A model generated the notes under the pieces. It worked only from the letters and a program-made list of their open reading frames with translations, was not told the DNA's origin and made no database searches. 64,000 nt of DNA, from the NCBI GenBank assembly GCA_017934185.1, contig JAGBJY010000025.1:33040-97039 (forward strand). The letters are read 5' to 3'. The position numbers were made by a program, and so were the translations under genes. The stretch is from Bacteroidales bacterium. Its GTDB lineage: Bacteria; Bacteroidota; Bacteroidia; Bacteroidales; UBA932. This document shows, piece after piece, positions 23,610 through 46,688 of the stretch; position 1 is the stretch's first letter; every line of letters starts with the position of its first letter.

Positions 23610-24641
23610 ATGTCTGAATATCATATCCCTGTGCTGCTGACGGAAAGTATTTCCGCCCTCATCACAAATCCCGATGGAACATACGCAGATGCCACTTTCG
23701 GAGGCGGTGGGCACACCGCTGCCATACTTTCACGCTTACACGATGGCGGGAGCGTCATCGCCTTCGATCGTGACTCTGATGCCCTGGCCAATGCGCCCAA
23801 AGACCCGCGGCTGACGCTCATCCACAACAACTTCCGCTTCATTGAAAACTACGCCTGGCAGCTGAAGAGATCCTTTGCTGACGCTCAGAATGACAGGGGC
23901 ACAGCAGGTCCGGAGGGCAGGCTTTCCGGAGCATTTGCCCGGACAGGGTCGCGAAGCGACGCGGAGGAAAGCCTGTCCTCCGGACCTGCCGTGTTCGACG
24001 GCATTCTGGCCGATTTGGGGGTGTCCAGCCACCAGTTTGACACGGCGGAGCGGGGTTTCAGCTTCCGCTTTGAGGAGGCGCCGCTGGATATGCGCATGAA
24101 CCGGGAGGCCACCCTCACGGCCGCGGCCGTGGTAAACAGCTACGAAGAAGCCGACCTGGAGCGCATCCTGAGGCTGTACGGTGAAGTGGACGGGGCCCGG
24201 AACATGGCCCGGCTCATTGTGAAAGCCCGCACGGAAAAGGCCCTGGAGACCACCGGAGACCTGGACTGCGCCGTAGCCAAGATGCTCCCCAAGGGCGCCG
24301 AGCACAAAGTGCTTGCAAAACTCTACCAGGCCCTCCGCATAGAAGTGAACCAGGAGATGCGCTCCCTGGAGAAATTCCTGGAAGGCGCCACCGCCAGCCT
24401 CCGTCCCGGCGGACGCCTGGTGGTCATTACCTACCACAGCCTGGAAGACCGCATGGTGAAAAACTTCATCAAGACGGGAAACATAGAGGGCGTGGAGCAA
24501 AAAGATGCCTTCGGCCGCACACAGACTCCCCTGGAGGCCGTGAACCGCAAGCCCATCGTCCCTCAGGAAAGTGAAATTGCCGGAAACACCCGCGCCCGCA
24601 GCGCGAAGCTCCGCATTGCGCAAAGGAGGGCCGCCCTATGA
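23610..24641 (+). CDS. rsmH: 16S rRNA (cytosine-1402-N4)-methyltransferase with in-frame palindromic insert
   Basis: Methylates N4 of C1402 in 16S rRNA using SAM. Motifs are HIPVLLTESI, FGGGGHT, FDGILADLGVSSHQFD and ERGFSFRF, and the C-terminal VITYHSLEDR. At 343 residues it is about 40 longer than usual family members. The excess equals an insert at about residues 87-127, directly before the conserved FDGILADLGVSS strand. The insert is encoded by a short repeat (23869-23899) and a palindromic element (23904-23989) that recurs in truB. The frame is kept and all known motifs are intact, so the enzyme is probably active. The stop overlaps the next start as ATGA. Confidence 0.95.
   Translation: MSEYHIPVLLTESISALITNPDGTYADATFGGGGHTAAILSRLHDGGSVIAFDRDSDALANAPKDPRLTLIHNNFRFIENYAWQLKRSFADAQNDRGTAGPEGRLSGAFARTGSRSDAEESLSSGPAVFDGILADLGVSSHQFDTAERGFSFRFEEAPLDMRMNREATLTAAAVVNSYEEADLERILRLYGEVDGARNMARLIVKARTEKALETTGDLDCAVAKMLPKGAEHKVLAKLYQALRIEVNQEMRSLEKFLEGATASLRPGGRLVVITYHSLEDRMVKNFIKTGNIEGVEQKDAFGRTQTPLEAVNRKPIVPQESEIAGNTRARSAKLRIAQRRAAL
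23869..23899 (+). repeat. Short dispersed-repeat-like fragment inside rsmH
   Basis: This 31-nt stretch (GATCCTTTGCTGACG followed by CTCAGAATGACAGGGG) encodes RSFADAQNDRG. It contains the small hairpin CTGA-CGC-TCAG and resembles the GATCC...GAATGAC repeats scattered in many bacterial genomes. It directly precedes the larger palindromic element, so the whole insert seems built from two repeat types. Confidence 0.6.
23904..23989 (+). repeat. Palindromic coding element, copy 1 (in rsmH)
   Basis: The 86-nt element has 24-nt inverted arms (23904-23927 and 23966-23989) that pair with one G:T mismatch. Between them is a core whose 40 nt at 23927-23966 are identical to the truB copy. Inside the core GTCGC-GAA-GCGAC forms a hairpin, and CCGG(a)GC-ATTT-GCCCGG can form a second. 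It is read in frame as SGAFARTGSRSDAE plus the arms. Confidence 0.9.
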
Positions 24642-24979
24642 GTGCCAAGTCCTTCTTCCTGAGCCTCCGAAACGGCCTCAGGGCCTTGCGCAACGGAGAA
24701 TTCCTGCTTCGAATCAGGGCCGACAAATACTACATGCACATCATGTACCTCTTCCTCCTCATGTGGGTGACCATCCTCCTGAGCCTCCAGGTGGACAAAA
24801 CCCTCACCCAGGCCGGAGACAACAAAGCCGCCATCGAGGAGCTTCGCATCCACCATGCCGAGAAAGAGGCCGCGCTGGTGAAGCTCAAGAGTGCATCGGC
24901 CACCGAGATACGTTTACAGAAAATGGGCTCCAAGGCAGCCATGCCCACAGAGCCGCCCACAGTGATTAAAAGGAAATGA
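24638..24979 (+). CDS. ftsL: FtsL-like bitopic division protein
   Basis: The 113-residue protein has a basic cytosolic start of about 35 residues, one transmembrane helix near residues 37-55 (MHIMYLFLLMWVTILLSLQV), and a helical, heptad-like tail (AGDNKAAIEELRIHHAEKEAALVKLKS). Position between rsmH and ftsI and this layout identify it as FtsL-like. Sequence similarity in the family is weak, so the call rests on context. FtsL links FtsQ and the FtsW-FtsI synthase. It overlaps both neighbours by 4 bp. Confidence 0.8.
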   Translation: MSAKSFFLSLRNGLRALRNGEFLLRIRADKYYMHIMYLFLLMWVTILLSLQVDKTLTQAGDNKAAIEELRIHHAEKEAALVKLKSASATEIRLQKMGSKAAMPTEPPTVIKRK

Positions 24980-26922
24980 CAAAGAAAGACAGTGAAATAA
25001 AGGATACCATCGTCGGGCGTGACCGCATTCACGTGGTGATGTTCTTCCTGTCCTTTGCGTTCATGGTGCTGGGCATCGTGATTCTGGTCTGGATTGTCAA
25101 AATCCAGGCCACTTACACTGTGGACGAACGGGTAATCAACCTCTTCCGCCCGGCGGTAGAGAAACACGTGGACACGCCGGTGCGCGGCCGCATCCTGGCC
25201 ACCGACGGCCGTCCGCTGGCCATATCGGCCCCGCTGTACGACATTTACATGGACTGCACCGTGCTCAAGCAGAAATATCAGGAAGAAGGGAAAGACTCGC
25301 TGGAGCGCGTATGGCAGGGCAAGGCACGGGAACTGGCCACCTACCTGAGCAACGAGTTCCGCGACAAAAGCGCCGAGCAGTATGCCAAAGCCATCCTGGA
25401 AGGCCGGCAGAAAGGCTCCAAGTACCTGCGCATCCAGCGCAATGTGGACCTGAGTACCCTCAATCGAGTAAAGACCTTCCCCCTCTTCAAGGACGGCCGA
25501 TACACCAGCGGCTTCATTTCCGTGGAACACGCCGAGCGCATCTACCCCTACGACTCCCTGGCCCGCCGGGTAATCGGTTATGTGAAAGACCAGGGCCGCA
25601 TTGGCCTGGAAGCCAGTTTTGACAGCGAACTGCACGGCACCGAAGGCTACGAATGGCGCCGGGTAACCGACAACAAGCGCTGGATCAGGGACCTGGATTC
25701 CGCCAGCGTGAAAGTGAAGGACGGCAACGACATCCGGACCACCCTGAACATTGACTTTCAGGATATTGCCGACAAAGCCCTCCGCAAGCAAATCAATGAG
25801 AACGAGGACATCCGTGCCGGCATCTGCATTATCATGGAGGCCAAGACGGGGGCCATCCGAGCCATGGTGAACCTTTCCCGCGGCGACACCCCGCAGACCA
25901 CCCTCTGGGAGCGCGACAACCTGGTGCTCACCCAAACCGGCGAACAGGGCTCGGTGATGAAAACCGTCACCCTGCTTTCCGTAGTGGAAGACGGCTACGT
26001 GACCTCCCTGGAACAGACCCTGCCCACCAACCACGGCTTTGTTCCCAAGCTGGGCATCAAGGGTCGTCCGTCGGCCTACCCGCACGATGCCCACATCAGC
26101 GACTACGAGCGCGAGGCCGGACGCAAGGAAATCACCGTCATGCACGGCTTTGAGATTTCTTCCAACTACGTTTTCGCCACCCTGGCCGAGACTTATTACG
26201 GCCGGCAGCCGCAGGAATTCCTGGACCACGTGTATTCCTACCGCCTGGGCGAAGCCTTTGACTTTGACATCAACGGCCTGCGGCCCCCCTATATCCCCCG
26301 CCCCGAGCTGGAAGGCAGCTGGTCGGCCACCACCCTGGGCACCATGGCCTACGGCTACGCCATGAGCGTGACGCCCCTGCATGTGGCTACCTTCTACAAC
26401 GGCATAGCCAACAAGGGCAAAATGATGAAACCCTATCTGGTGGAAAGCGTGGAAAAGGACGGCAAGGTGCTCAAGAAGTTCGAGCCCAGCGCCCTGAACG
26501 CCAGCATCTGCTCCCCCGCCACGGCCGATACCGTGACCAGGGCCCTTCGCGCCGTAGTGAACAGCGGTACGGGCACCCGCCTGAAAAGCGCCAAACTGCC
26601 GGTGGTGGGCAAGACAGGTACCGCCCAGGTGGTCCTGAGCGCCCAGGAGCGCAAAGGCAGCATAGACCCCTACCACGACCCCATGGGCCGGAAGAAAAAC
26701 CAGGGTACCTTCGTGGGATTTTTCCCCGCCGATGACCCCAAATATACCATCCTTGTAACGGTGTACTCCTACCTTTCGGGAAGGAGTTTCTACGGCGGCA
26801 CCATGCCGGCCCTGGCCGTCAAGGACATTGTAGACAGAATATACGCATTGGACCCGCAGTGGCGCCCGGAACTCCGCCCCACTGCGGCAGTCCCCGACAT
26901 GAAGAGCCATGAAACTGAATAA
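24976..26922 (+). CDS. ftsI: Division-specific penicillin-binding protein 3 (class B transpeptidase)
   Basis: Cross-links septal peptidoglycan as partner of FtsW. The 648-residue protein has one N-terminal transmembrane helix (about residues 14-37), a dimerisation domain from residue ~65 (RGRILATDGRPLA), and the transpeptidase domain with SxxK in GEQGSVMKTV, SxN in ISSNYVF and VVGKTGTAQ. It ends shortly after the catalytic domain with no C-terminal PASTA domain. The active-site context GEQGSVMK differs from the more common EPGSxxK. The gene overlaps murE by 14 bp. Confidence 0.95.
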   Translation: MTKKDSEIKDTIVGRDRIHVVMFFLSFAFMVLGIVILVWIVKIQATYTVDERVINLFRPAVEKHVDTPVRGRILATDGRPLAISAPLYDIYMDCTVLKQKYQEEGKDSLERVWQGKARELATYLSNEFRDKSAEQYAKAILEGRQKGSKYLRIQRNVDLSTLNRVKTFPLFKDGRYTSGFISVEHAERIYPYDSLARRVIGYVKDQGRIGLEASFDSELHGTEGYEWRRVTDNKRWIRDLDSASVKVKDGNDIRTTLNIDFQDIADKALRKQINENEDIRAGICIIMEAKTGAIRAMVNLSRGDTPQTTLWERDNLVLTQTGEQGSVMKTVTLLSVVEDGYVTSLEQTLPTNHGFVPKLGIKGRPSAYPHDAHISDYEREAGRKEITVMHGFEISSNYVFATLAETYYGRQPQEFLDHVYSYRLGEAFDFDINGLRPPYIPRPELEGSWSATTLGTMAYGYAMSVTPLHVATFYNGIANKGKMMKPYLVESVEKDGKVLKKFEPSALNASICSPATADTVTRALRAVVNSGTGTRLKSAKLPVVGKTGTAQVVLSAQERKGSIDPYHDPMGRKKNQGTFVGFFPADDPKYTILVTVYSYLSGRSFYGGTMPALAVKDIVDRIYALDPQWRPELRPTAAVPDMKSHETE

Positions 26923-28312
26923 ACTCCTAGCGAATCTGGAGGCAAAAATCCTCCACGGAAGCCCCGAAACGGAAGTATCGGCCATTGCCAGCGATTCCCG
27001 CAAGGTAACGCCGGGCGCCCTTTTCATTGCCGTCAGCGGCACCGAAAGGGATGGTCGCGACTATATCCCGCAGGCCCTGGAAAAGGGCGCTGCGGCTGTG
27101 GTGGAAGCCTCCAGGAAGGATTTGGCCCTCATGGCCGATGCCTTCTACGGCCACCCGTCCGGCAAAATCACCCTGGTGGGCATCACCGGCACCAACGGCA
27201 AAACCACCACGGTAACCCTGCTGTACCGCCTGTTCACAGGCATGGGCTACTCCTGCGGCCTGCTGTCCACCATTGCCAACTATGTGGGCAGTGAGCGCTT
27301 TGAGACCGAGAACACCACCGTAGACCCCATCACGCTGAACAGCCTCATGGCCCGCATGGTGGAGAAAGGCTGCCAGTACTGCTTCATGGAGGTAAGTTCC
27401 ATCGGCATGGAACAGGACCGCGTAACCGGGCTGGACTTTGCCATGGGCATTTTCTCCAACCTCACGCACGACCACCTGGACTACCACAAGACCTTTGCCG
27501 AGTACCTGCGCTGCAAAAAACTTTTCTTCGACCGCCTTCCCGCAAAGGCCGTTGCCCTTATCAACACCGACGACAAGAACGGTCCGGTGATGGTGCAGAA
27601 CACCAAGGCACAGGTGGTTACCTGCTCGGTGAAAGGCCTGGCCGACCATACCGCCCGCATCCTGGAACAGGACGTGGAAGGGATGCTCCTGAAAATTGAC
27701 GGGGTTGAGACCTGGACCCGCCTCATCGGCGAGCACAACGCCTACAACCTCCTGGCCATCTACAGCGCCGCCGTCTGCCTGGGCTTCGGGGCCGAAGAAG
27801 TGCTGGTGGCCCTTTCCAAGCTTTCATCGGCCCCCGGAAGACTGGAGAGCCTGCGGGGCCCGCGCGACCTTACCGCAGTGATTGACTATGCCCACACGCC
27901 CGATGCCCTGGAAAATGTGCTGAAGACCCTGCGGGCCGTGGCCCCCAAGCGCACCCTGGTGTGCCTGTTCGGCTGCGGAGGAGACCGCGACCGCAGCAAG
28001 CGCCCGGAAATGGCGAAGATTGCCGAAAAACTGGCCGACCGCCTGGTCATCACCTCCGACAATCCGCGCACGGAAAACCCGGATGCCATCATTGCCGAGA
28101 TAAAAGCCGGCCTCCAGAGCGCTTCTTTGGCCAAAACACTCCTCATCACCGACCGCATTGAAGCCATACGAACGGCCATCCTGACCGCTCCGGAAGGCGC
28201 CATTATCCTGCTGGCCGGCAAGGGACATGAAGATTATCAGGTGGTGGGCCACGAAAAGCGCCCCCTGAATGAAAAAGAAATCGTGAACGATACCTTCAAA
28301 CTCATCCGATAA
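26909..28312 (+). CDS. murE: UDP-MurNAc-tripeptide synthetase, meso-diaminopimelate type
   Basis: Adds the third amino acid to UDP-MurNAc-L-Ala-D-Glu. The 467-residue protein has the ATP loop GITGTNGKTTT, the carbamylated-Lys region and DHLDYHKT, and the C-terminal DNPRTENP. The DNPR box marks enzymes that use meso-diaminopimelate rather than lysine. Together with the NlpC/P60 peptidase and dipeptide epimerase at 44186-46262, this indicates DAP-type peptidoglycan. TAATG overlap with mraY. No murF follows, as is usual in the Bacteroidales cluster. Confidence 0.96.
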   Translation: MKLNKLLANLEAKILHGSPETEVSAIASDSRKVTPGALFIAVSGTERDGRDYIPQALEKGAAAVVEASRKDLALMADAFYGHPSGKITLVGITGTNGKTTTVTLLYRLFTGMGYSCGLLSTIANYVGSERFETENTTVDPITLNSLMARMVEKGCQYCFMEVSSIGMEQDRVTGLDFAMGIFSNLTHDHLDYHKTFAEYLRCKKLFFDRLPAKAVALINTDDKNGPVMVQNTKAQVVTCSVKGLADHTARILEQDVEGMLLKIDGVETWTRLIGEHNAYNLLAIYSAAVCLGFGAEEVLVALSKLSSAPGRLESLRGPRDLTAVIDYAHTPDALENVLKTLRAVAPKRTLVCLFGCGGDRDRSKRPEMAKIAEKLADRLVITSDNPRTENPDAIIAEIKAGLQSASLAKTLLITDRIEAIRTAILTAPEGAIILLAGKGHEDYQVVGHEKRPLNEKEIVNDTFKLIR

Positions 28313-29604
28313 TGCTGTACCATCTCTTCCAATATCTTGAATCGGCCGGAGTGGACTTCCCCGGCATAGGCCTCATGAATTACCTGAGCTTCAGGGCCAT
28401 GCTCGCTGCTGTGACGGCCGTGCTGGTGTCCATGCTGGCCGGAAAACACATCATCCGCTGGCTGCAGAAGCAGCAGATTGGAGAGACCGTGCGGGACCTG
28501 GGACTGGAAGGACAGCTCCAGAAAAAAGGCACTCCCACCATGGGCGGCATCATTATCATTGTGTCCATCCTCTCGGGCGTGCTGCTTTTCTGCGACCTCA
28601 CCAACATCTACGTTATCCTGCTGCTGGTAAGCACCCTCTGGTGCGGCGCCCTGGGTTTCACCGATGACTATATCAAGGTGTTCAAACACCGCAAGGAAGG
28701 CATGTCCGAGAAAGGCAAACTGGCGGGCCAGGTGGTCCTGGGTTTTGTCATCGGCCTTACCGTATGGATGAGTCCGGACATTGTGGTGCGCGAAAAAGTG
28801 CAGGTGGAAGAAAGCATTGAGCGCACCCTGGAAACCGAAACCACCGTTACCAGTGGCCGATATGTGCAGGAAGATGTGGTAAAGAGTACCAAAACCACCA
28901 TCCCCTTTGTAAAGAACCATGAGTTTGACTATCGCTGGCTCTCCCCTGTGAAAGGCAAATGGGGCTGGTATGCCAAATGGGCCATCTATGTGCTCATGAT
29001 TGTGGTAGTGATTACCGCCTGCTCCAACGGCACCAACCTCACCGACGGCCTGGACGGCCTGGCGGCGGGAACATCGGCGGTAGTGGGCGTGGTCCTGGGC
29101 ATCATCGCCTGGCTGGGAGGCAACCTCATAGACTCCAACTTCCTGAATATCATGTATATACCAGGGTCCGGAGAGATAGCCATCTTCATGAGTGCCTTTG
29201 TGGGTGCGCTCATCGGCTTCCTGTGGTACAATTCCTTCCCGGCGCAGGTATTCATGGGCGACACCGGCAGCCTCACCATTGGCGGCATCATCGGCGTAAG
29301 TGCCGTGCTCATGCGCAAAGAGCTCCTGATTCCCCTGCTTTGCGGGGTGTTCTTTGCCGAAAGCCTCTCCGTGCTGCTGCAGCGCGCCTATTTCAAATAC
29401 ACCCGCAAGCGCACCGGCACCGGGCACCGCATCTGGAGCATGACCCCGCTCCATCACCATTATCAGGACAAGAAAGCCCCGGAGGGGCCCGTGCTGTTCC
29501 CCAAACCCGCTCCGCCCCAGCATGAAGCGAAGATTACCGTAAGGTTCTGGATTGTGGGAATTATATTGGCAGTAAGTACGTTAGCATTATTGAAGATTAG
29601 ATAA
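28312..29604 (+). CDS. mraY: Phospho-MurNAc-pentapeptide transferase
   Basis: Transfers phospho-MurNAc-pentapeptide to undecaprenyl phosphate, forming lipid I at the inner membrane. The 430-residue protein has about ten transmembrane helices, with GTPTMGG, the Asp pair in GFTDDYIKV, NLTDGLDGLAAG, FMGDTGSL and TPLHHHY. The region around residues 155-215 (after VWMSPDIVVREKV) is an extra soluble loop that makes Bacteroidota MraY longer than the E. coli enzyme. Confidence 0.96.
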   Translation: MLYHLFQYLESAGVDFPGIGLMNYLSFRAMLAAVTAVLVSMLAGKHIIRWLQKQQIGETVRDLGLEGQLQKKGTPTMGGIIIIVSILSGVLLFCDLTNIYVILLLVSTLWCGALGFTDDYIKVFKHRKEGMSEKGKLAGQVVLGFVIGLTVWMSPDIVVREKVQVEESIERTLETETTVTSGRYVQEDVVKSTKTTIPFVKNHEFDYRWLSPVKGKWGWYAKWAIYVLMIVVVITACSNGTNLTDGLDGLAAGTSAVVGVVLGIIAWLGGNLIDSNFLNIMYIPGSGEIAIFMSAFVGALIGFLWYNSFPAQVFMGDTGSLTIGGIIGVSAVLMRKELLIPLLCGVFFAESLSVLLQRAYFKYTRKRTGTGHRIWSMTPLHHHYQDKKAPEGPVLFPKPAPPQHEAKITVRFWIVGIILAVSTLALLKIR

Positions 29605-29605
29605 T

Positions 29606-30943
29606 ATGGCAAGAGTAGTAGTATTAGGTGGCGCCGAAAGTGGCGTAGGCGCAGCAGTTCTGGCAAAAGTAAAGGGTTTTGATGTGTTCCTCTCCGACAA
29701 GGGGCAGATCAAGGACAGCTATGTGGAGACCCTGAAAAAGTGGGACATTCCCTTCGAGCAGGGGCAGCATACGGAGGAGCTTATCCTCAGTGCCGATGAA
29801 GTGGTGAAGAGCCCCGGCATCCCCGGCACGGTTCCCATGGTGCAGAAAATCCGAGATAAAGGCATCCGCGTGGTGTCCGAAATAGAATTCGCCAGCCGCT
29901 ACGACAGCGCCAAGAAGATTTGCATCACCGGGTCCAACGGCAAAACCACCACCACTTCGCTCATTTATTACCTGCTGCAGAACGCCGGCCTCAACGTAGG
30001 GCTGGGCGGGAACATCGGCAAGAGCTACGCCTACCAGGTGGCTACCGAGCATTTTGACTACTATGTACTGGAAATCAGCAGTTTCCAGCTGGATGACATT
30101 TACGATTTCCGTCCGGACATTGCCATTATCACCAACATTACGCCCGACCACCTGGACCGCTACGACCACAAGATGGAAAACTACGTGGCCGCCAAATTCA
30201 ACATCACCCGCAACCTCACGGAACAGGATTGCTTTATCTTTGACTCCGACGACGACATCACCGTGGGACACCTCTCCAAGATTGTCCTGCGCTGCAAGAT
30301 GCTCCCCTTCTCCCAGGAGAAGGAGGTGGCCGAGGGCGCTTTCCTCAAAGGCGACAAGATTGTGCTCCGCTACGACAAGGAGCCCGAAACCGACCTCTTC
30401 CTGGAACAGCTGGCCCTGGGCGGCAAGCACAACATCTATAACTCCATGGCCGCTGCCCTGGCCGCCAAAGCTACGGGCATTGAGAACAGCGTCATCCGCG
30501 AATCCCTGGCCACTTTCCAGCCCATCGAACACCGGCTGGAACCGGTGCTGAGCATCAAAGACGTGCTGTATATCAACGACTCCAAAGCCACCAACGTGGA
30601 CAGCGCCTGGTACGCCCTGGAATGCCAGAAACGCCCCGTGGTATGGATTGTGGGCGGCACCGACAAAGGCAACGACTACAGCGTCCTGAACGAGCTGGTG
30701 AAGGAAAAAGTGAAAGCCATCGTGTGCCTTGGCGTAGACAACAGCAAGATTCACGCAGCCTTTGAAGGTATGGTGCCCGTAATTACCGACGCCCTGAGCG
30801 CCGAAGAGGCGGTACGGAAATCCTCAGAACTGGCCCAGGGAGGAGACGTGGTGCTCCTGAGCCCCTGCTGCGCCAGTTTTGACCTGTTCAAGAATTACGA
30901 AGACCGCGGCGAGCAGTTCAAGGCTGCCGTCCGCAAACTCTAA
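29606..30943 (+). CDS. murD: UDP-MurNAc-L-alanine:D-glutamate ligase
   Basis: Adds D-Glu to UDP-MurNAc-L-Ala in the cytosol. The 445-residue protein has an N-terminal UDP-binding domain (VVVLGGAESGVGAA), the ATP loop ITGSNGKTTTTS, the ligase motif EISSFQLDD, ITPDHLDRY, and the C-terminal domain with NDSKATNVDSAWYAL and SPCCASFDLF. Spacing to mraY is 1 bp and to ftsW 6 bp. Confidence 0.96.
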   Translation: MARVVVLGGAESGVGAAVLAKVKGFDVFLSDKGQIKDSYVETLKKWDIPFEQGQHTEELILSADEVVKSPGIPGTVPMVQKIRDKGIRVVSEIEFASRYDSAKKICITGSNGKTTTTSLIYYLLQNAGLNVGLGGNIGKSYAYQVATEHFDYYVLEISSFQLDDIYDFRPDIAIITNITPDHLDRYDHKMENYVAAKFNITRNLTEQDCFIFDSDDDITVGHLSKIVLRCKMLPFSQEKEVAEGAFLKGDKIVLRYDKEPETDLFLEQLALGGKHNIYNSMAAALAAKATGIENSVIRESLATFQPIEHRLEPVLSIKDVLYINDSKATNVDSAWYALECQKRPVVWIVGGTDKGNDYSVLNELVKEKVKAIVCLGVDNSKIHAAFEGMVPVITDALSAEEAVRKSSELAQGGDVVLLSPCCASFDLFKNYEDRGEQFKAAVRKL

Positions 30944-30949
30944 CCCCCT

Positions 30950-32311
30950 ATGGCCGAAGAGAAGAAAGAAGGCAATTTCCTGGGGCATCTGGTCCACCTG
31001 ATGGACCGCTTCAGCGGTGACAAGGTAATCTTCCTGATTGCCCTGTTCCTGATGCTTATCTCCGTGATTTCCGTGTTTTCCAGCACGCCCAGGCTTGCCA
31101 ATGACACGGGAAGCGACCGTGTGAGCATCATGGTAGACCAGCTCAAGATTGTGGCGCTGGGCTTCGTGCTCATCTTCAGCCTGTATTATTTCGGCCGTTC
31201 AGAGTGGTACAGGGCCCTTTCCAAGCTGGGATTCGGCATAAGCTTCCTCATGCTGGCGGTCCTGGTACTGAACCTGAACCTGGGCTTTGTCAGGGCTGCC
31301 GAAATCAACGGTGCCCGCCGCATCATGGTCATTGCCGGCCAGCAGATTCATGTCTATGAGTTTGTGAAGCTGTTCATGATTATGTACCTGGGCTGGGCCC
31401 TGGATACGTTCAAGAACCACCGCTTCAAGCTGGCGCCGCGCCTGGCGGCCGCCTTCCCCCGCCTGAGCTTCCTGGAAAAGGACATCTGGCAGAAAGTGGT
31501 CTATATCTACATCCCCATCCTGGTCACCACCCTCATGGTGATGATGGGGTCCAACTCCAGCGCCCTGTTCATCGGCGCCATCATGGTACTGATGGTGCTG
31601 GTGGGCGGTATTGACGTCAGGGACGTTGCCTACGTCATGGTGGTGGGCATCCTGGGCGTGGGGCTCATGTTCGGCGCTTACAAGGCCGGCATCCTCAAGG
31701 AGAGCCGCATCGGCACCGCCATCGGCCGTATTACCCAGGACGACGATGCCACCATGCAGCAGCTCATCCATTCCAAACGGGAATCGCTGGAATGGCGGCA
31801 GGCCCGCGCCAAGCTGGACCAGCCGGTGGGCGCGCTGCTGGCCATCAAGGAAGGCGGGCCGCTGGGGAAAGGCATTGGCAACAGCACCCAGAAATACCAG
31901 GTTCCGGTTATCTTCGGCGACTATATGTTCAGCTTCATCGTGGAAGAAACCGGCCTCTGGGGCGCTGCCATCCTCATTATCCTGTATTTCAGCCTGCTGG
32001 CACGCGGCACCATGGTGGCCAAGGAATGCAACAACTATTATGACAAGATTATCGTCACCGGCCTCATTATCCTGGTCACCGGACAAGCCTTCATGCACAT
32101 GGCGGTGAACGTGCACCTGCCCCTGGTACCGCAAACCGGTCAGACGCTGCCGCTGGTGAGCCACGGCACCAATTCTTTCCTGGTATTTGCCCTGGTCTTC
32201 GGCATTTTGCTGTCCATTTCCAAGGATGCCCGGGAGAATATGGCCCGCAGGGAAGCCGAGGCGGCCCCTATCATAGAACACGACAACTGGACACAAAGCA
32301 CAACTGAGTAA
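30950..32311 (+). CDS. ftsW: Septal peptidoglycan glycosyltransferase FtsW (SEDS)
   Basis: Polymerises glycan strands at the septum together with FtsI. The 453-residue SEDS protein has about ten transmembrane helices. It begins with a ~25-residue polar N-terminus, then VIFLIALFLMLISVISVFSS. GKGIGNSTQKYQVPVIFGDYMFSFIVEETG holds the conserved loop with the catalytic Asp region (key residues GKG, P--F-DYMFS), and LPLVPQTGQTLPLVSHG matches the SEDS signature near the C-terminus. It overlaps murG by 1 bp (TAATG). Confidence 0.95.
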   Translation: MAEEKKEGNFLGHLVHLMDRFSGDKVIFLIALFLMLISVISVFSSTPRLANDTGSDRVSIMVDQLKIVALGFVLIFSLYYFGRSEWYRALSKLGFGISFLMLAVLVLNLNLGFVRAAEINGARRIMVIAGQQIHVYEFVKLFMIMYLGWALDTFKNHRFKLAPRLAAAFPRLSFLEKDIWQKVVYIYIPILVTTLMVMMGSNSSALFIGAIMVLMVLVGGIDVRDVAYVMVVGILGVGLMFGAYKAGILKESRIGTAIGRITQDDDATMQQLIHSKRESLEWRQARAKLDQPVGALLAIKEGGPLGKGIGNSTQKYQVPVIFGDYMFSFIVEETGLWGAAILIILYFSLLARGTMVAKECNNYYDKIIVTGLIILVTGQAFMHMAVNVHLPLVPQTGQTLPLVSHGTNSFLVFALVFGILLSISKDARENMARREAEAAPIIEHDNWTQSTTE

Positions 32312-33441
32312 TGGAATACAAGCGCATCAGAGTCATCATCAGCGGCGGAGGCACCGGGGGACACATTTTCCCGGCGGTTTCCATCGGCCATAAATTGAAG
32401 GAACTGAATCCTGAGACGGAAATCCTCTTTGTGGGGGCCGAGGGCAAGATGGAAATGGAAAAAGTTCCCGCCGAGGGCTTTGAGATTGTGGGACTTCCCA
32501 TAGCCGGGGTACAGCGCCGCCTGAGCCTGAAAAACCTCATCAGCAACCTCACGGTGCCCTTCCGCGTACTGGACAGCGTCCGCCGCGCGCGCCGCATTGT
32601 GAAGGCGTTCAAGCCCGATGTGGTGGTGGGTGTTGGCGGATATGCCAGCGCTCCCCTGCTCTGGGCCGCTACCGGCCTAAAAATTCCCGCCCTCATCCAG
32701 GAGCAGAACGGTTTTGCCGGGCTCACCAACAAAATGCTGGGTGGGCGAGTCCAGAAAGTGTGCGTAGCCTATGAAGGCATGGAAAAATTCTTCCCCGCCC
32801 ACAAGATTGTGCTCTCCGGAAACCCCATCCGCCCGTCGGTATCGGCCCCGGCAACGCCTGAGCTGAAAGCCGAAGCCCTGCGCTACTACGGCCTGGATCC
32901 GGCCAAGAAACACCTTTTCATTGTGGGCGGCAGTCTGGGAAGCGGCACACTGAACAGCGCCATGAAGCATTGGATTCAAGACGGCTGCCCGGGCGGCGAC
33001 AACCTTGAAATTATCTGGCAGTGCGGCAAATACTACAAGAGCTCAACGGACGCCTTCATGGCTTCCCACCCGGAGGTGAAGGGCATCCGTCACTATGACT
33101 TCATTGCCCGCATGGACCTGGCCTACGCCGCCTCTGACGTGGTGGTTTCCCGCAGCGGCGCCTCCACGGTATCGGAGCTCTGCGCCATGGGCAAACCCAC
33201 CATCTTCGTTCCCTCCCCCAATGTGGCCGAAGACCACCAGACGCACAACGCCATGGCCCTGGTACGCCGGGAGGCCGCCCTCCTGGTAAAAGACAGCGAA
33301 GCGGTGGATGAACTGCTGCCCACCGCCGTGGGCCTGCTGGAGAGTCCGGAAAAAATGGCCGCCCTGGCCCGGAATGCGGAGAAAATGGCCCTTCGCAACG
33401 CCGCGCAGGTAATTTGTGACGAAATTTATAAACTCGTATGA
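32311..33441 (+). CDS. murG: Lipid II synthase (GlcNAc transferase MurG)
   Basis: Adds GlcNAc to lipid I on the inner face of the membrane. The 376-residue GT28 protein has ISGGGTGGHIFPA at the start, VVVGVGGYASAP, QEQNGFAGLTNK, and in the C-terminal domain VVVSRSGASTVSEL and PSPNVAEDHQTHNA. Length is normal. ATGA overlap with murC. Confidence 0.96.
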   Translation: MEYKRIRVIISGGGTGGHIFPAVSIGHKLKELNPETEILFVGAEGKMEMEKVPAEGFEIVGLPIAGVQRRLSLKNLISNLTVPFRVLDSVRRARRIVKAFKPDVVVGVGGYASAPLLWAATGLKIPALIQEQNGFAGLTNKMLGGRVQKVCVAYEGMEKFFPAHKIVLSGNPIRPSVSAPATPELKAEALRYYGLDPAKKHLFIVGGSLGSGTLNSAMKHWIQDGCPGGDNLEIIWQCGKYYKSSTDAFMASHPEVKGIRHYDFIARMDLAYAASDVVVSRSGASTVSELCAMGKPTIFVPSPNVAEDHQTHNAMALVRREAALLVKDSEAVDELLPTAVGLLESPEKMAALARNAEKMALRNAAQVICDEIYKLV

Positions 33442-34787
33442 AAAACGTTTACTTTATAGGGATTGGGGGCATCGGCATGAGTGCCCTGGCACGCTATTAC
33501 AAGTTCAAAGGGTACGATGTGGCCGGCTATGACCGCACGCCGTCTGAACTTACGGCCGCGCTGGAGAAGGAAGGCATTTCCGTGCACTACGAAGACCGCC
33601 CCGACCTTGTACCGCTGGACAAAGACCAGACACTGGTGGTATACACGCCCGCCATTCCGCAGGACCTGAAAGAACTGCGCAAGGTGATGGACGAGGGGTA
33701 CCTGGTGCTCAAGCGTTCCCGCACGCTGGGCGAAATTACCCGCTCCCAGCGTTGCATGGCCGTTGCCGGGACACACGGAAAAACCACCACATCCACCCTT
33801 ACCGCCCACATCTTCACCCAGAGCGGAGAAGGCTGCAGCGCCTTCCTGGGGGGCATTTCCCGCAATTACGGCACCAACCTCCTCATGTCCCGGAACGAGA
33901 CCGTGGTGGTGGAGGCCGATGAATTTGACCGTTCCTTCTTGCAGCTGAATCCCGAGATTGCTGTGATCACCGCTGTAGACCCCGACCATTTGGACATTTA
34001 CGGCGACTACGCCCACGTGGTGGAGGCTTTCAAAGCCTTCGCTTCCCAGGTGACGGGCACGGTAATCGCCAAAAAGGGCACGCCCATCAGCGAGGCCGAC
34101 ACCAAGGCCCGCGTACTCACCTATCACTACACAGACCCTGAGGCCGATTTCTACGCAGAGAATCCCCGCCCCGACGAGCTGGGCTGCTTCCACTACAACC
34201 TCCACTATCCCGGAGGAGTCCTGGAAAACGTCCGCGTAGGAGCCCCGGGCTGGGTGAATGCAGAAAACAGCGTGGCCGCAGCCGCCATCGCCCTTACCTA
34301 CGGGCTGGAGGGGAGCACCGTAAAATCGGCCATCGGCTCCTTCGAGGGCGTCAAACGCCGCCTGGAAGTGCACGTGAACAGCCCCAGGCTGTCTTACATT
34401 GATGACTATGCCCATCATCCGGCCGAACTCGCATCGGCCATCTCCTCCATGCGGGACATCTTCCCCTCCCGCAAACTCACGGCCATTTTCCAGCCGCACC
34501 TTTATACCCGCACGCGGGACTTTGCCCCGGAATTTGCCCGGGCGCTGAGCCAGGTGGACAAACTCATCCTCCTGGACATTTATCCCGCCCGCGAAGAACC
34601 CATTCCCGGCGTCACCTCCGAGATGATTTTCAAAGAGGTCACCGCCCCGGAAAAGGTGCTCCTCAAAAAGGAAGCGCTCATGGATTATCTGGCCGATGAA
34701 CCGCTGGACGTGCTGGTTACCTTCGGCGCCGGCAACATCGACCGCTTTATTGAACCCATTACCCAGCTTTTGAAAAGTCGCCTATGA
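33438..34787 (+). CDS. murC: UDP-MurNAc:L-alanine ligase
   Basis: Adds L-Ala to UDP-MurNAc, the first amino acid of the stem peptide. The 449-residue protein has GIGGIGMSALARYY at the start, the ATP loop VAGTHGKTTTSTL, EADEFDRSFL, DPDHLDIYG and the C-terminal IDDYAHHPAEL and FQPHLYTRT. Length and motifs are normal. It overlaps murG and ftsQ by four bases each. Confidence 0.96.
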   Translation: MKNVYFIGIGGIGMSALARYYKFKGYDVAGYDRTPSELTAALEKEGISVHYEDRPDLVPLDKDQTLVVYTPAIPQDLKELRKVMDEGYLVLKRSRTLGEITRSQRCMAVAGTHGKTTTSTLTAHIFTQSGEGCSAFLGGISRNYGTNLLMSRNETVVVEADEFDRSFLQLNPEIAVITAVDPDHLDIYGDYAHVVEAFKAFASQVTGTVIAKKGTPISEADTKARVLTYHYTDPEADFYAENPRPDELGCFHYNLHYPGGVLENVRVGAPGWVNAENSVAAAAIALTYGLEGSTVKSAIGSFEGVKRRLEVHVNSPRLSYIDDYAHHPAELASAISSMRDIFPSRKLTAIFQPHLYTRTRDFAPEFARALSQVDKLILLDIYPAREEPIPGVTSEMIFKEVTAPEKVLLKKEALMDYLADEPLDVLVTFGAGNIDRFIEPITQLLKSRL

Positions 34788-35572
34788 AACCCATCCTGCG
34801 CCGGGGCCTGGGGCTCCTTACCGTCATAGCCTTCACCGGCATCTGGATGCTCTCTTCCAGCATGGGAGAGAAGGTCCGGCGTGAGCGCACCTGCCAGGGC
34901 AAGGGCAGCCTGGAGGTCATTGTCACCGACTCCCTGGAAAGGACGTTTGTAGCCAGGCAGGACATAGAAAACTGGCTGGAGAAAGAGTACCGCGCCTATG
35001 CCGGGCTGCCGCTGGACAGCGTAGACCTGGACCGCATTGAGCATATCATCCTGAGCCACAGCGCCGTGCGTGACTGCGAGGCCTGGCTCACCGACGACGG
35101 CATCCTGCATGTGGAGATTGGCCAGCGCCAGCCCGCCGTGCGCTTTGACGATGGGAGCAACGGCTATTACGCCGACGCCGAAGGCTTCATCTTCCCGCTC
35201 CAGTCCCGCGGAGGGGCCGATGTCCCGGTAATCAGCGGCAAACTTCCGCTGAAGGTGGAGCGGGGATTCAAGGGCTTCCCGGAAGACCCTGCCCAGCATG
35301 AGTGGCTCATGCAGATGGTAAACTTGGTGAACTATATGAAAGGGACGGTGTGGGAGCACAACCTGTCGGCCATTACGGTGGACGCCGCCGGAAACCTGGT
35401 TCTGCTGCCGCGGGAAGGAAAGGAAAAGTTCCTGTTTGGGGCGCCTACAGAGATTCCCGGGAAGTTTGCCTTGCTGGAGGCTTATTACCAGAGCGTGGCC
35501 CCCGCAAAAGCGCCGGGCTACTACAAGCACGTGGACCTGCGCTATGCCGGACAATTAGTATGTAAAAAGTAA
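34784..35572 (+). CDS. ftsQ: Cell division protein FtsQ
   Basis: The 262-residue bitopic protein has a transmembrane helix at about residues 8-27 (GLGLLTVIAFTGIWMLSSSM), a POTRA-like domain (SLEVIVTDSLERTFVARQDIENWL) and a beta domain (ILHVEIGQRQPAVRFDDGSNGYYADAEGFIFP, key residues W-L-I-V-QR-P-A). FtsQ joins the early and late divisome proteins. Position between murC and ftsA confirms the call, since the sequence is weakly conserved. Confidence 0.9.
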   Translation: MKPILRRGLGLLTVIAFTGIWMLSSSMGEKVRRERTCQGKGSLEVIVTDSLERTFVARQDIENWLEKEYRAYAGLPLDSVDLDRIEHIILSHSAVRDCEAWLTDDGILHVEIGQRQPAVRFDDGSNGYYADAEGFIFPLQSRGGADVPVISGKLPLKVERGFKGFPEDPAQHEWLMQMVNLVNYMKGTVWEHNLSAITVDAAGNLVLLPREGKEKFLFGAPTEIPGKFALLEAYYQSVAPAKAPGYYKHVDLRYAGQLVCKK

Positions 35573-35583
35573 CACTATAACGT

Positions 35584-37032
35584 ATGGAAGAAAAATATAT
35601 TGCCTCTATTGATCTGGGGAGTTCCAAATTCGGGCTCTGCGTTGCCAGGGTGAATGGCGACGACGTGCAGATTGTCTATTACAAGGAGACACCCTCCGAC
35701 GGCATCCGCGCCAGCCTCATCACCAATCCCATGAAGGCATCGGCCAAATTGAAGGAAGTCATTGCCCAGGCCGAGAAAGAGCTCATGATCCAGATTCTGC
35801 AGGTGGTGGTGGGCATGCCCCGCAGCGAGGTGGCACAGGTGACGGCATCGGCCCGCATTGCCCGTACCAACCCGGACGAATACATTTCCATGGAAGAAGT
35901 GGAAAGCCTCAAATCCATTGCGCTGGACACCTATCCCCTGCCCTACCCCGACAAACAGATTATGTACGGGGCCGTGGCGCAGTCTTTCTCCATTGACGAC
36001 GAGATTCAACTGGTGGAAGACGAGGTGGTGGGCACCCTGAGCTCTTCCCTGGAAGGCAATTTCAAAGTGTTCATCGGCAGCCGCAATGCCACCACGGCAC
36101 TGGATAAGATTTTCAACAGCCTGAACATTGCCGTGGCCAAGAAATACTTCCTGCCCGACGTAGTGGCCCGGACGGTGCTCACCGACGAGGAGAGGGCCGG
36201 CGGCGTGGCCATGGTGGATGTGGGCGCAGGCGTAACCTCGCTGGCCGTGTATCACGGCGGCATCATGCGCTACTATGCTTCCATCCCCTTCGGCGGCAAG
36301 GCCATCACCAACGACATCCGTACGGAGTGTTCCATTTCGGAAGAACTGGCCGAAAAGATTAAGAAACGCTTCGGTGCCTGTCAGCCCGGAAAACTGGCCT
36401 CCCTCAGTGAGAAAGTGCTCCAGATCCGCCTCACGGAGCCTTATAAAGAAGTTCCCGTACGTTATATCTCCGAGGTCATTGACTGCCGATGCCGCGAGAT
36501 TGTTGAGGCGGTGCTGTATTATATCCAGGAAAGCGGCTTGCAGAACAGCCTCCGCAGCGGTATCGTGGTCACCGGCGGCGGGGCCGAACTGGCCAATTTC
36601 ATTCCGCTCATCAAGGAGATGTCCGGTTACGACGTGCGCAAGGGCTATCCCCGCTTCATGTTCTCCGCTTCGGTGGGCAGTGGCGTTTATTCAACGGCTG
36701 CCACCGCCGCCATCGGCATGGTGCTGTCGGCCAAAGATGACAACCTGCCGGATTGCGTGAGCATGCCGGAGAAGAAGGAAAGCGTTGAAACCGAAATGGT
36801 TGAGGTGGAAGTAACGGAGGACATTCCGGAAGGCAGCCTCTTCAGTGAAAGCGAGATGGGCGAGATTGTGCAGGAGGAAACAAAGCCTCAGGAGAAGAAG
36901 CCCAAGACCAAGAAGGTGAAAGTGCCCAAGCCCAAGAAAGAGGGCACCGGAATCTTTTCCATTTTCTGGAGCACCGTCAAGACTGAGGCGCTCAAAGCCT
37001 ACGATAAAGCCAACGAAGAATACAATCAATAA
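35584..37032 (+). CDS. ftsA: Cell division protein FtsA
   Basis: The actin-like protein that tethers FtsZ to the membrane. The 482-residue product has the phosphate 1 motif ASIDLGSSKFGLCVA, a 1C subdomain, MVDVGAGVTSLAVYHGG (phosphate 2), and GIVVTGGGAEL (adenosine). The last ~80 residues form an acidic then Lys/Pro-rich linker and end in an amphipathic helix (FSIFWSTVKTEALKAYDKA) for membrane binding. It lies 11 bp after ftsQ and 6 bp before ftsZ. Confidence 0.95.
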   Translation: MEEKYIASIDLGSSKFGLCVARVNGDDVQIVYYKETPSDGIRASLITNPMKASAKLKEVIAQAEKELMIQILQVVVGMPRSEVAQVTASARIARTNPDEYISMEEVESLKSIALDTYPLPYPDKQIMYGAVAQSFSIDDEIQLVEDEVVGTLSSSLEGNFKVFIGSRNATTALDKIFNSLNIAVAKKYFLPDVVARTVLTDEERAGGVAMVDVGAGVTSLAVYHGGIMRYYASIPFGGKAITNDIRTECSISEELAEKIKKRFGACQPGKLASLSEKVLQIRLTEPYKEVPVRYISEVIDCRCREIVEAVLYYIQESGLQNSLRSGIVVTGGGAELANFIPLIKEMSGYDVRKGYPRFMFSASVGSGVYSTAATAAIGMVLSAKDDNLPDCVSMPEKKESVETEMVEVEVTEDIPEGSLFSESEMGEIVQEETKPQEKKPKTKKVKVPKPKKEGTGIFSIFWSTVKTEALKAYDKANEEYNQ

Positions 37033-37038
37033 ACTGCC

Positions 37039-38280
37039 ATGGATACCTCTTTCAATATTACTCCCAACGACTGGACACCGGAGAACGCCATCATCAAAGT
37101 AGTGGGCGTTGGCGGTGGCGGCTGCAATGCCGTGAACTATATGTACAAGCAGAACATCCAGGGCTGCAGCTTCATTGTTTGCAATACGGATGCGCAGGCG
37201 CTCCAGTCCAGCGAAGTGCCGGTGAAAATCCAGATGGGCCAGAACGGTCTGGGCGCCGGAACAGACCCCACCGCCGGCCGCAACGCCGCCCTGGAGGCCC
37301 AGGACGAGATTGCCCGCAAGGTGCTGGACTGCAATACCAAGATGCTCTTCATCACAGCCGGCATGGGGGGCGGTACCGGAACCGGTGCCTCCCCGGTGAT
37401 TGCCAAAATGGCCAAGGAGCGGGGCATCCTCACCGTGGCCGTGGTAACCATCCCCTTCAAGAACGAGGGCAACGAAAGCCAGTCCAAGGCCGTTGACGGC
37501 ATCCATGAGCTGGAGAAAAACGTGGACAGCCTCCTCATCATCAACAACGAGAAGCTGTACCGTTTCTTTGGCGACACCCTCATCCAGGAAGCCTTCCCCA
37601 AGGCCGATGAAGTGCTGGCAACGGCCGTAAAAGGCATCATCGAGGTCATCACCAAACCGGGCTACATCAATGTGGACTTCCAGGATGTGTGCAAGATGAT
37701 GCGGAACTCCGGCATGGCCCTCATGGGCAGCGGAGAAGGCACGGGCAACGACCGCCTGGAAGAGGCTGTGAAGGGCGCTTTTGAAAGTCCGCTGCTGAAC
37801 GACTTCGACCTCAAGACCGCCAAGAATGTGCTCATCAACATTACCACCGGCAACAACGAACGGGGGGCCAAGATGAGCGACCTGGAGAAGATTGACGACA
37901 TGATTTCCCAGTACACCGGCGATGCCAACCACTTCAAGAAAGGCATCATCTGGGACGATGACCCCGAGTTTGGCGACAAGGTGCGCATCACCGCCATCGT
38001 CACGGGTTTCCATATGGACCTGGGCGGCCTGGGCCTGAACAAAGACTTGGGGAACCTGGTAATCATCGACGAAGGCTTCCAGTGGGAAACTTCAGCACAC
38101 GGCGACGAGGTTGTCATCCCCGCCGGAGGATCCGAAACCATCAAAATCGGCTACAACAACTCCGACAACGCCCGCAGTTTCAATTTTGCCACCGAGCAAA
38201 AGCCCATTCTCTGCGTAGAGCCCGGCGAGCGCAAGGCTGACCTGGAGAACATCCCCGCCATTCGCCGCACGCACAAATAA
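37039..38280 (+). CDS. ftsZ: Cell division GTPase FtsZ
   Basis: The tubulin-like ring protein. The 413-residue product has KVVGVGGGGCNAVNYM, the tubulin signature GMGGGTGTGASPVIA, NNEKLYRFFGD and the T7 region NVDFQDVCKMM. A linker of only about 50 residues ends in a C-terminal peptide (LENIPAIRRTHK) that likely binds FtsA. Bacteroidota FtsZ proteins are often somewhat longer. The stop codon abuts the stop of the convergent truB with no base between them, so there is no room for a terminator. Confidence 0.96.
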   Translation: MDTSFNITPNDWTPENAIIKVVGVGGGGCNAVNYMYKQNIQGCSFIVCNTDAQALQSSEVPVKIQMGQNGLGAGTDPTAGRNAALEAQDEIARKVLDCNTKMLFITAGMGGGTGTGASPVIAKMAKERGILTVAVVTIPFKNEGNESQSKAVDGIHELEKNVDSLLIINNEKLYRFFGDTLIQEAFPKADEVLATAVKGIIEVITKPGYINVDFQDVCKMMRNSGMALMGSGEGTGNDRLEEAVKGAFESPLLNDFDLKTAKNVLINITTGNNERGAKMSDLEKIDDMISQYTGDANHFKKGIIWDDDPEFGDKVRITAIVTGFHMDLGGLGLNKDLGNLVIIDEGFQWETSAHGDEVVIPAGGSETIKIGYNNSDNARSFNFATEQKPILCVEPGERKADLENIPAIRRTHK

Positions 38281-39147
38281 TCAGAAGAGGGAAAGGGCCT
38301 GGCCCAGGGTGAGGGCCGATGAGAGGGGGTAGTCGCCGCTGCGGGAACGGATGAGGCCGGAAAGGTGGGCGCCGGAGCCCAGGGCCTCCCCCAGGTCACG
38401 GGCAAACGCGCGGATGTATGTGCCCTTGCTGCAGGCAATGCGAATCACGGCCTCCGGCAGCCCCAGGGCCGATGTGTCCGCCACGTGGATACGGCTTGAA
38501 GCGGACGGTTCGGAGGAAGGGACCTTTCCCTCCGCGTCGCTTCGCGACCCTGTCCGGGCAAATGCTCCGGGAAAGGTCCCTTCCTCCGAGCCGTCCTTCC
38601 AGTCCAATAGTTCCAGCTCGGAGATAACAATCCGGCTGCGGTGGAGGGATTCCAGGGCGGTGGCATCCAGGGCCTCGGTGTGGCCGGAGCGGTAGAGTTT
38701 CCGGGCCAGTTCGTAGGCACGGACACCGTCCACGCTTTTGGCACTGAAAAGCGGGGCTACTTGCTCCTGCTCTCCCAAAAACGCAGGCAGGGCTGCCTCC
38801 ACGGCCTCCCGGGTGATGTGCTCATAAGGGAAAAAACGGTCGGGCTCTTTCTCCAAATCATAAGAAGGCGTAGTAGCACCGAAACGGATGGTGGCGATGT
38901 ATTCCTTATCGTGGTCCTGAAGCTGTTGCGCCCGCTTGCAGGCATTGCCGATGCACACCAGCAACACCCCCGTCGCCAGCGGATCCAGCGTCCCGGCATG
39001 GCCCACCTTCAGGTTCTTCTTCCCGAAGTGCCGGATGGCGGCATACTTGAGTTTCCGGATTACATCGGCCGACGTCCAGCGGTACGGCTTGTCCACCGGA
39101 AGCACAATGCCCTCCGGATAATCGGCAATGTCATGGGAAAAACTCAT
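38281..39147 (-). CDS. truB: tRNA pseudouridine-55 synthase with in-frame palindromic insert
   Basis: Makes the T-loop pseudouridine of tRNAs. The catalytic Asp is in GHAGTLDPLATGVLLV; PLFSAKSVDGVRAYELAR and CSKGTYIRAFARDLGE are family motifs. The protein is 288 residues, about 45 more than usual for the phylum. The extra part, residues ~184-215 and flanks, sits between LELLDW and LPEAVIRIACSKGTYIR, a loop between two strands. It is encoded by the palindromic element at 38503-38596, shared with rsmH. The frame is open and the catalytic motifs are intact. The start overlaps the rpiB stop by 4 bp. Confidence 0.95.
   Translation of the reverse strand: MSFSHDIADYPEGIVLPVDKPYRWTSADVIRKLKYAAIRHFGKKNLKVGHAGTLDPLATGVLLVCIGNACKRAQQLQDHDKEYIATIRFGATTPSYDLEKEPDRFFPYEHITREAVEAALPAFLGEQEQVAPLFSAKSVDGVRAYELARKLYRSGHTEALDATALESLHRSRIVISELELLDWKDGSEEGTFPGAFARTGSRSDAEGKVPSSEPSASSRIHVADTSALGLPEAVIRIACSKGTYIRAFARDLGEALGSGAHLSGLIRSRSGDYPLSSALTLGQALSLF
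38503..38596 (-). repeat. Palindromic coding element, copy 2 (in truB)
   Basis: The 94-nt element has 27-nt arms (38503-38529 and 38570-38596) that pair with one mismatch. The 40-nt core (38530-38569, read on the minus strand) is identical to 23927-23966 in rsmH. Arm sequence differs from the rsmH copy in the middle, yet each pair stays complementary. It is read in the same frame, giving GAFARTGSRSDAE. Confidence 0.9.
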
Positions 39148-46626: not shown

Positions 46627-46688
46627 CAAAGCATTAAGAAAAAACTGCGCCAAGCATGCTTGAACGCAGTTTTTTTTTAATGCTTTGC
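46626..46688. terminator. 24-bp-stem palindrome and terminator after tRNA-Ser
   Basis: The left arm 46626-46649 and right arm 46665-46688 pair over 24 bp, with one G:T. The central stem ACTGCG/CGCAGT followed by nine Ts acts as a terminator. The loop itself holds the 12-nt palindrome CAAGCATGCTTG. The left arm begins at the tRNA discriminator base. Confidence 0.8.

Follow-up and report, generated by a model that had tools for sequence, protein, structure and literature searches.

A protein-coding palindromic element with an invertible and apparently exchangeable core in conserved genes of a rumen Bacteroidales genus

Two coding palindromes in rsmH and truB

The stretch of DNA analysed here (the window: 64,000 nucleotides of contig JAGBJY010000025.1, assembly GCA_017934185.1, from an uncultured member of the Bacteroidales) contains two conserved genes, rsmH and truB, each of which carries within its reading frame a palindromic element consisting of two complementary arms around a common core. 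Inserts of this kind had been described in the first-pass annotation, which was made from the letters of the window alone, and an inverted-repeat search recovers both of them at the places given there, in frame in both genes. The features concerned are the following:

23610..24641, + strand: rsmH, host gene, 343 aa (Pfam PF01795, E 2.8e-89; match to 3tka)
38281..39147, - strand: truB, tRNA pseudouridine synthase B, host gene, 288 aa (Pfam PF01509, E 7.8e-40; match to 1sgv)
23900..23993, + strand: element copy in rsmH, 94 nt, arms 23900-23927 and 23966-23993, in frame (inverted-repeat search)
38503..38596, - strand: element copy in truB, 94 nt, arms 38503-38530 and 38569-38596, in frame (inverted-repeat search)
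23932..23962, + strand: conserved core A of the rsmH copy, 31 nt, within a 42-nt stretch common with truB
38534..38564, - strand: conserved core A of the truB copy, 31 nt
23868..23899, + strand: a second, different repeat adjoining the rsmH element, read RSFADAQNDRG (by eye)

The product of rsmH is presumably the 16S rRNA m4C1402 methyltransferase. Both elements have arms of 28 nt around 38 nt, with a complementarity of 93% in rsmH and 96% in truB, and they exceed in length all others of the 12 listed inverted repeats of the window. The identical core reported for both genes is indeed there, its length being 42 nt (CCGGAG...GGAGG, 23926-23967) and not 40, and a 23-nt piece of it, allowing up to 3 mismatches, is matched twice in the window and never in 100 shuffles. 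On the coding strand, both inserts translate in the same register as GAFARTGSRSDAE. RsmH is longer than usual, as had been noticed: in the alignment with E. coli RsmH (3tka), positions 82 and 129 enclose 46 residues, against 8 in the E. coli protein. RNA folding of the rsmH and truB inserts gives z = -8.5 and -7.6, respectively, against shuffles. As for the inner hairpins that had been proposed, the minimum-energy fold does contain two small ones, although the first differs from the CCC/GGG hairpin of the structure tested below; a three-way-junction shape of the core is a possible model, and its inner pairs hardly vary.

The repeat next to the rsmH element (CTTTGCTGACGCTCAGAATGACAG) resembles, by eye, a stretch beside the element in atpB (L005) of the same genome. 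Two A/T-rich inverted repeats elsewhere in the window (46626-46688 and 60908-60976), perhaps terminators, are unrelated to the element.

Copies, distribution and host genes

Hereafter, G labels denote genomes and L labels loci or stretches, G000 being the window's own genome (a 2.13-Mb draft in 62 contigs). A 32-nt core pattern with at most 3 mismatches finds 20 copies in it (17 exact, two with one mismatch and one with three), and a covariance model gives 29 hits, second-core copies included. G019, G147, G148 and G572 are, like G000, rich in cores, and in the relatives G038, G122 and G051 no core was detected by pattern or by model. One of the 20 copies (fabD, L016) lies on a 3.6-kb contig (C54) that is 99.8-99.9% identical to G714 over 1.7-2.0 kb (L030, L372), and this contig is, judging from that identity, probably mis-binned or recently shared. 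Within the genus, which may be Cryptobacteroides-like, 16/151 genomes of a first draw have core A or a variant close to it, as do 47/400 of a larger draw of which the first is a part; genomes with a variant core alone (e.g., G090, with a variant ending in GACA) are counted in both. Order-wide, G000 was the sole match among 393 genomes, just 3 of them from this genus. When 84,980 species genomes were scanned for exact matches to one core variant, possibly without records close to the own genome, 10 stretches came up, all in three "Bacteroidales bacterium" metagenome-assembled genomes (MAGs) from ruminants; the named records with the core are likewise Bacteroidales MAGs. Viral contigs gave 0 exact matches to the element, and no match was found in plasmids. 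The suggestion of a multi-copy element inside protein-coding genes is therefore borne out by the 20 copies of the own genome and the 47/400 genomes of the genus, and the insert in rsmH is not universal among relatives; the two outcomes that would, according to that annotation, have refuted it did not occur.

The analysed set comprises 145 elements from 32 genomes at 57 loci. Two of the 102 non-redundant elements of the first set were dropped for being too close to a contig end, and the second set consists of 45 new elements, excluding duplicates, near-end copies and copies with more than 5 mismatches. RGIG4871 and G714 turned out to be labels of the same genome (identity of 100% over 1490 and over 1740 bases); merging them and omitting L016 alters no conclusion and leaves the inversion counts given below unchanged, the main arm and core comparisons having preceded the merging. 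Orthologues in related species share the site of the element at 25/50 loci of the first set and at 29/57 of both sets, and 34 of the 45 newly drawn elements landed on loci already known.

Besides rsmH and truB, protein matches in G000 (15 distinct proteins compared with Pfam, with no hit for L015, and with L001, L011 and L020 outside the scan) identify as hosts TruA, AtpB, a WbqC-like protein, dihydropteroate synthase, prephenate dehydrogenase, a ferredoxin-like protein, Fmt, an RlmB/TrmH-type methyltransferase, FabD (on the doubtful contig), MiaA (just below the cut-off), NAD-dependent DNA ligase, DNA polymerase I, a citrate-lyase-ligase/CitG fusion and a radical-SAM protein. Hosts over the whole set include rsmH, truB, truA, fmt, folP, ligA, polA and atpB, together with genes that we take to be cysS and a ketosynthase-like gene.

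Two registers were tried for the reading frame, with the core read AFARTGSRSDA or, reversed, ASLRDPVRANA. In one of them, 98 of the 102 non-redundant elements lie within a stop-to-stop open reading frame (ORF) of at least 200 aa, which alone is no proof of a gene. In a six-frame view the longest ORF is in one of those registers for 77/102 elements, and for several of the other 25 the orthologues at the site show the gene running in one of the two. Since the frame is open through 98/102 copies, the insert need not be removed from the RNA. Furthermore, the arms keep the same codon phase in both registers, so that a core flip leaves the arm peptides nearly unchanged. The elements probably occupy places in proteins that tolerate extra residues, and the arms with the core in either orientation make up an open, hydrophilic-looking peptide. 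In the fmt region of G063 and G074 (L292, L293), the Fmt protein match spans one TAA codon in both genomes.

Arms follow the site and cores, over longer distances, the genome

The two parts of the element have different histories. In the first set, the arms of copies at the same locus in different genomes (101 pairs) share an identity of 0.62, against 0.49 when locus labels are shuffled within genomes (0/2000 permutations as high), and the corresponding values in the second set are 0.79 and 0.57 (0/2000). The core, for which differences were scored over the core plus seven flanking bases, is in the first set no more alike at the same locus than in shuffles (3.02 vs 2.99 differences, P 0.56) and more alike within a genome (1.66 vs 2.48, 0/2000; P 0.016 in the second set). 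Pooling both sets (labels merged, L016 omitted, 500 shuffles) gives 0.65 vs 0.51 for the arms, P 0.25 for the core by locus and 1.67 vs 2.57 differences for the core within genomes. Some genomes are nearly uniform, with 16/19 scored copies alike in G000 and 11/13 in G019. When same-locus pairs are divided into four bins by the divergence of their flanks (97 pairs, 4 of the 101 having been dropped for unusable flanks), core identity stays at 0.94-0.97 throughout, with fourfold sites rising from 0.41 to 0.64 and arms from 0.55-0.59 to 0.69. On these sequence comparisons, cores appear to be inherited at short range and to grow to resemble those of their own genome over longer times.

Pairing of the arms

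The covariation of the arms was assessed in an ungapped alignment of 61 sequences from 94 well-paired elements (6 of 100 poorly paired ones and 33 through sampling having been left out). All 20 outer arm pairs have changed on both sides; in the 27-pair structure there are 402 double-change cells vs 103 in shuffles, and 97.0% of cells pair vs 73.5%. Shifting the partner by one base lowers pairing to 50-53%. The innermost arm pair also covaries (G-C in 85, A-T in 10 and C-G in 2 of 100 elements), and the inner hairpins, being near-invariant, are outside the reach of this test.

The first-pass annotation had offered structure in the RNA as one possible reading of the conserved pairing. Selection for pairing in the RNA would be expected to leave more G·U than A·C among the single-step mismatches of the transcribed strand, and no such preference is seen: in mRNA orientation, the arm mismatches are 55 G·U vs 56 A·C in the first 100 elements and 23 vs 29 in the 45 of the second set. 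Pairing maintained for the sake of RNA structure is thus not supported, and template switching at the DNA level explains it best. Rfam gave no match at the gathering score among 10 distinct loci, microRNA and RNAI matches being below threshold only.

A single-strand intermediate was considered as well, as hinted by an excess of G·T over A·C mismatches on the element strand in the first set (74 vs 37 over all 100 elements, and 43 vs 19 in the 88 of them that have at most 4 mismatches) and in the 28 core-B elements described below (13:2), and was set aside, as the excess was not replicated in the second set (17:16 in 41 elements, 28:24 for all 45). Self-complementarity inside a single arm, over 14 registers, gave nothing convincing (z from -3.3 to 2.5).

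Core inversion and core types

The two copies of the window have their cores in the same orientation to the coding strand, as had been observed, but this does not extend to the family, since both orientations occur at 20 of the 29 shared loci. Opposite orientations are found in 14/35 same-site pairs with an arm identity of at least 0.85 (pairs that overlap), and in four flipped pairs (L348/L308, L065/L362, L349/L308 and L037/L050) all 20 scored arm bases are identical. A further core, D (TTCGTTCGCTGAAACGAGGGAATATGCTCTCTCG), is present in rsmH of G063 and G074 (L130, L131), in opposite orientations between similar arms.

The consensus of core A is CATTTGCCCG[G/T]ACAGGGTCGCGAAGCGACG, of about 31 nt, between complementary arms of about 20-28 bp. 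A different one, core B, reads G[T/G]AGCATCGGCTATNTTTTTCGCGGA in most copies, and its ends resemble those of core A (G[G/T]AGCAT...GCGGA). Core-B elements show the same arm register as core A, with 95.8% Watson-Crick pairing. In a model search of 18 genomes, G148, which is devoid of core A, gave 23 hits carrying core B, and the 28 core-B elements read are these 23, four in G000 and one in G140. Twelve of the 28 lie at core-A sites of other species, including rsmH, truB, fmt, cysS and the ketosynthase-like gene. The arms around A and B at the same site (35 pairs) are 0.60 identical vs 0.554 ± 0.016 permuted (P 0.0036), the clearest case being L197 (B) and L076 (A), with 17/20 arm bases identical; a weaker one, by eye, is rsmH, where a short outer motif is common to G147 (core A), G140 (no core) and G141 (core B).

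Related sequences were also encountered. In other species there is a larger core family between long arms, of the type GGCCACCCTCG...GAGGG with GAGCGAAGCGA or GTCGCTTCGCGAC (L129 1768-1895, L091 1945-2049, L059 813-947), which is like core A in its GCGAAGC hairpin. L020, L210 and L214 of G000 and L041 of G090 hold core-A-like sequence in a different arm context (in L020 and L041, ..GACCATTTGCCCGG...GCGACAGGGAG), some of them inside A/T-ended stems that resemble transcription terminators. G148 has, at L180, L194, L197, L201, L202 and L203, two core-B elements with different arms in one open frame, which suggests local duplication or hopping.

Gain and loss at permissive sites

At the rsmH site, the core is present in 3/27 readable orthologues of close relatives, the own genome included (3 further loci were unreadable), and in the remaining orthologues its place is taken by a short linker of native sequence or by inserts of another kind. 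In other species, several unrelated coding repeats occupy the loops of rsmH and truB, which can therefore be regarded as permissive. The sister species G140 and G141 (100/99 support in an RsmH tree) share a core-B palindrome in truB; G140 has there core A too, at the edge of the palindrome, with TCCGGA on both sides and arms of about 10 bp (by eye), and G141 is without it. This single case has the appearance of a recent insertion at a palindrome of short length, loss in G141 being the alternative. The cysS sites of G126 and G054 are scar-like, and the fmt site is empty in G037 and filled in G005, whose Fmt proteins are 94-97% identical in their aligned parts; as the empty site still reads GGAAGGGG, it may represent a loss.

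The search for a mobilising enzyme

The obvious candidate for an enzyme acting on such a hairpin is a Y1/RAYT transposase. The Y1 family (PF01797) is found in 110/151 genus genomes and in 15 of the 16 genomes of that draw that hold core A, the exception being G140, in which the element is present with no Y1 match. Nineteen Y1 stretches were read (L170, the twentieth drawn, has no Y1 locus), and 17 of them have hairpins of other sequence and two (L162, L166) no hairpin. An element beside the Y1 gene was found in 0 of these 19, many more Y1 genes being unread; in L151 and L153 the element is about 3-4 kb from the Y1 gene, within another gene. For these reasons, the Y1 transposase as mobiliser is not supported, although it may still be considered a candidate. 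In L151, L153, L156, L157, L159, L160 and L168, the Y1/RAYT genes are flanked, on one side or on both, by hairpins whose sequence is their own, in a REP-like arrangement.

Origin of the family and alternative explanations

The explanation that we favour, with modest confidence, is that of a non-autonomous protein-coding palindromic family, selfish or near-neutral to its host, in which the core, rather than the whole element, would be refreshed and exchanged between copies. Template switching by the DNA polymerase between the inverted arms, a mutation mechanism already known, would keep these complementary and flip the cores, which accounts for the covarying arms and the core flips, but leaves the likeness of cores within a genome and the occurrence of B at sites of A unexplained, and it is for this reason that we infer a transfer of cores between copies. 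It might proceed by short gene conversion (any two A copies have about 40-50 bp in common), by entry of the core into existing palindromes, or by an enzyme acting on the hairpin. What the proteins tolerate would restrict the family to a few permissive loops.

Other explanations deserve to be weighed. It is possible, although on balance unlikely, that the core is the true mobile unit, that is, a gene-less cassette, some 30-40 nt long, which moves into and out of pre-existing palindromes (e.g., at a docking site of the TCCGGA type), inverts in them and takes the place of other cores, the arms being host-resident and growing by template switching; if so, conserved genes would carry inherited docking hairpins with interchangeable contents. 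Rather doubtful is the recurrent insertion of whole elements, in which a master element of the species (arms and core) repeatedly enters a few tolerant loops while older copies are lost, so that shared sites would reflect tolerance and not descent. The fact that the core follows the genome at longer distances would fit such insertion, as would the unrelated coding repeats in the rsmH and truB loops, the scar-like or empty sites (cysS in G126 and G054, fmt in G037 beside the G005 copy) and the truB core A of G140 with its short arms, absent from the sister G141. A single master, however, predicts arms shared per genome, and within genomes these are at 0.502 vs 0.491 expected; instead, they follow the site (0.62 vs 0.49), and equally so whether the cores of a pair are opposed in orientation (0.608, 43 pairs) or not (0.616, 54 pairs), with a weaker tendency of this kind where one core is of type B.

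Selection at every copy for a functional site (protein-binding, RNA or replication-related), the arms merely presenting the core, would be in line with the 94-97% core identity in all four divergence bins and with a paired change, TTGC/GCAA, in the inner stem. We regard it as improbable, given the patchy presence of the element in the genus (47/400 genomes), the replacement by core B in other species and the use of both orientations; moreover, changes common to nearly all copies of one genome (GGACA in G000, GTACA in G019) are hard to obtain by selection alone. Least probable of all, to the point of being scarcely credible, is an element acting at the RNA level, with a hairpin kept for mRNA structure or processed out of the mRNA: the very stable predicted folds and the strong covariation speak for it, but it is at odds with the balance of G·U and A·C mismatches, the two orientations of the core and the frames open through nearly all copies.

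The favoured explanation, a palindromic family with core transfer between copies, has its own difficulties. No mobilising enzyme was found (Y1 genes searched in 151 genus genomes, 19 stretches read), nor was any donor-recipient transfer of a core caught among the copies. The core does follow the locus in the second set (0.95 vs 2.04 differences, 0/2000), in which close species abound, and this implies that its refreshing is slow and visible only at longer distances. Core uniformity is not general, as G140 and G141 each hold several core variants, and this, together with the doubtful copy in the own genome, slightly lowers our confidence. The conservation of the core is also partly ascertained, since copies were found by patterns that allow 2-3 mismatches and are biased to conserved ones. 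Regarding the arms, they are very slightly more alike within genomes (the above 0.502 vs 0.491, P 0.016), their likeness between A and B copies at a site is modest, and the ungapped identity in rsmH of G000 is 0.30 with G019 and 0.50 with G147, so that this site alone fails to show inherited arms; besides, a constraint towards hydrophilic peptides could be the cause of arm likeness at a site.

With these points in mind, the stems stay with the gene, and the loop can flip, become uniform within a species or differ between species. As the elements lie inside highly conserved genes of an uncultured rumen genus with many related species for comparison, they separate compensatory stem change from selection on RNA structure, which are usually confounded, and offer a natural count of in-place inversion and core exchange. 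The persistence and likeness of gene-less palindromes in genes thereby becomes testable, and the family may serve as a natural test case for selfish hairpin DNA that lives inside genes without breaking them.

Comparison with known systems

Among hairpin families, REP/REPIN-RAYT systems share with the element the short hairpins and the many copies. Its core is flanked by GGAG or GTAG, similar to the REP tetranucleotide GT[A/G]G in the portions of the account available (PMC3686654), where GGAG is not given as a REP tag; core A has mostly GGAG and core B mostly GTAG, placed inside the arms and not at the foot of the whole hairpin. According to the same portions, REPs are almost exclusively found between genes (PMC3686654), unlike the element, 98/102 copies of which lie in ORFs of at least 200 aa and which is thus not mainly intergenic.

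With regard to inverted repeats shaped by template switching, the available parts of the respective accounts describe homogenised arms and inverted spacers in yeast coding DNA (PMC8604942), propose this mechanism for compensatory stem changes and loop inversions (PMC8794818), and suggest it as one possibility for the paired arm substitutions of coding palindromes in nematomorph mitochondria (PMC6649704). Arms changing together and spacer inversion are both seen in the element as well, whereas the yeast and nematomorph palindromes, as far as these parts go, form no dispersed family with a shared core (PMC8604942, PMC6649704, PMC8794818).

The closest parallel is the one already drawn in the first-pass annotation, namely the Rickettsia palindromic elements (RPEs), and it holds well: dispersed palindromes in conserved genes, with the frame open and at the same sites in orthologues. 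In the portions of the literature available, RPEs and the palindromic elements of Wolbachia (WPEs) are in-frame palindromes of conserved genes, located at the same sites in orthologues and possibly at hot spots for several families (PMC3767692, PMC2229807), a description that is shared by the element, whose loops are also taken by several repeats. By description, it is set apart from them by host lineage and size, the copies of the window having 94 nt and RPE/WPE 96-150 bp (PMC3767692, PMC2229807). In the open-licence literature searched, no protein-coding palindromic elements are reported for Bacteroidales. What the element adds is a near-invariant core with a history apart from that of the variable arms, one that can invert in place and is not of the same type in every species at a given site, for which the RPE accounts, in their available parts, have no counterpart. 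It works, therefore, like the Rickettsia palindromic elements, with a core that is invertible and, apparently, exchangeable.

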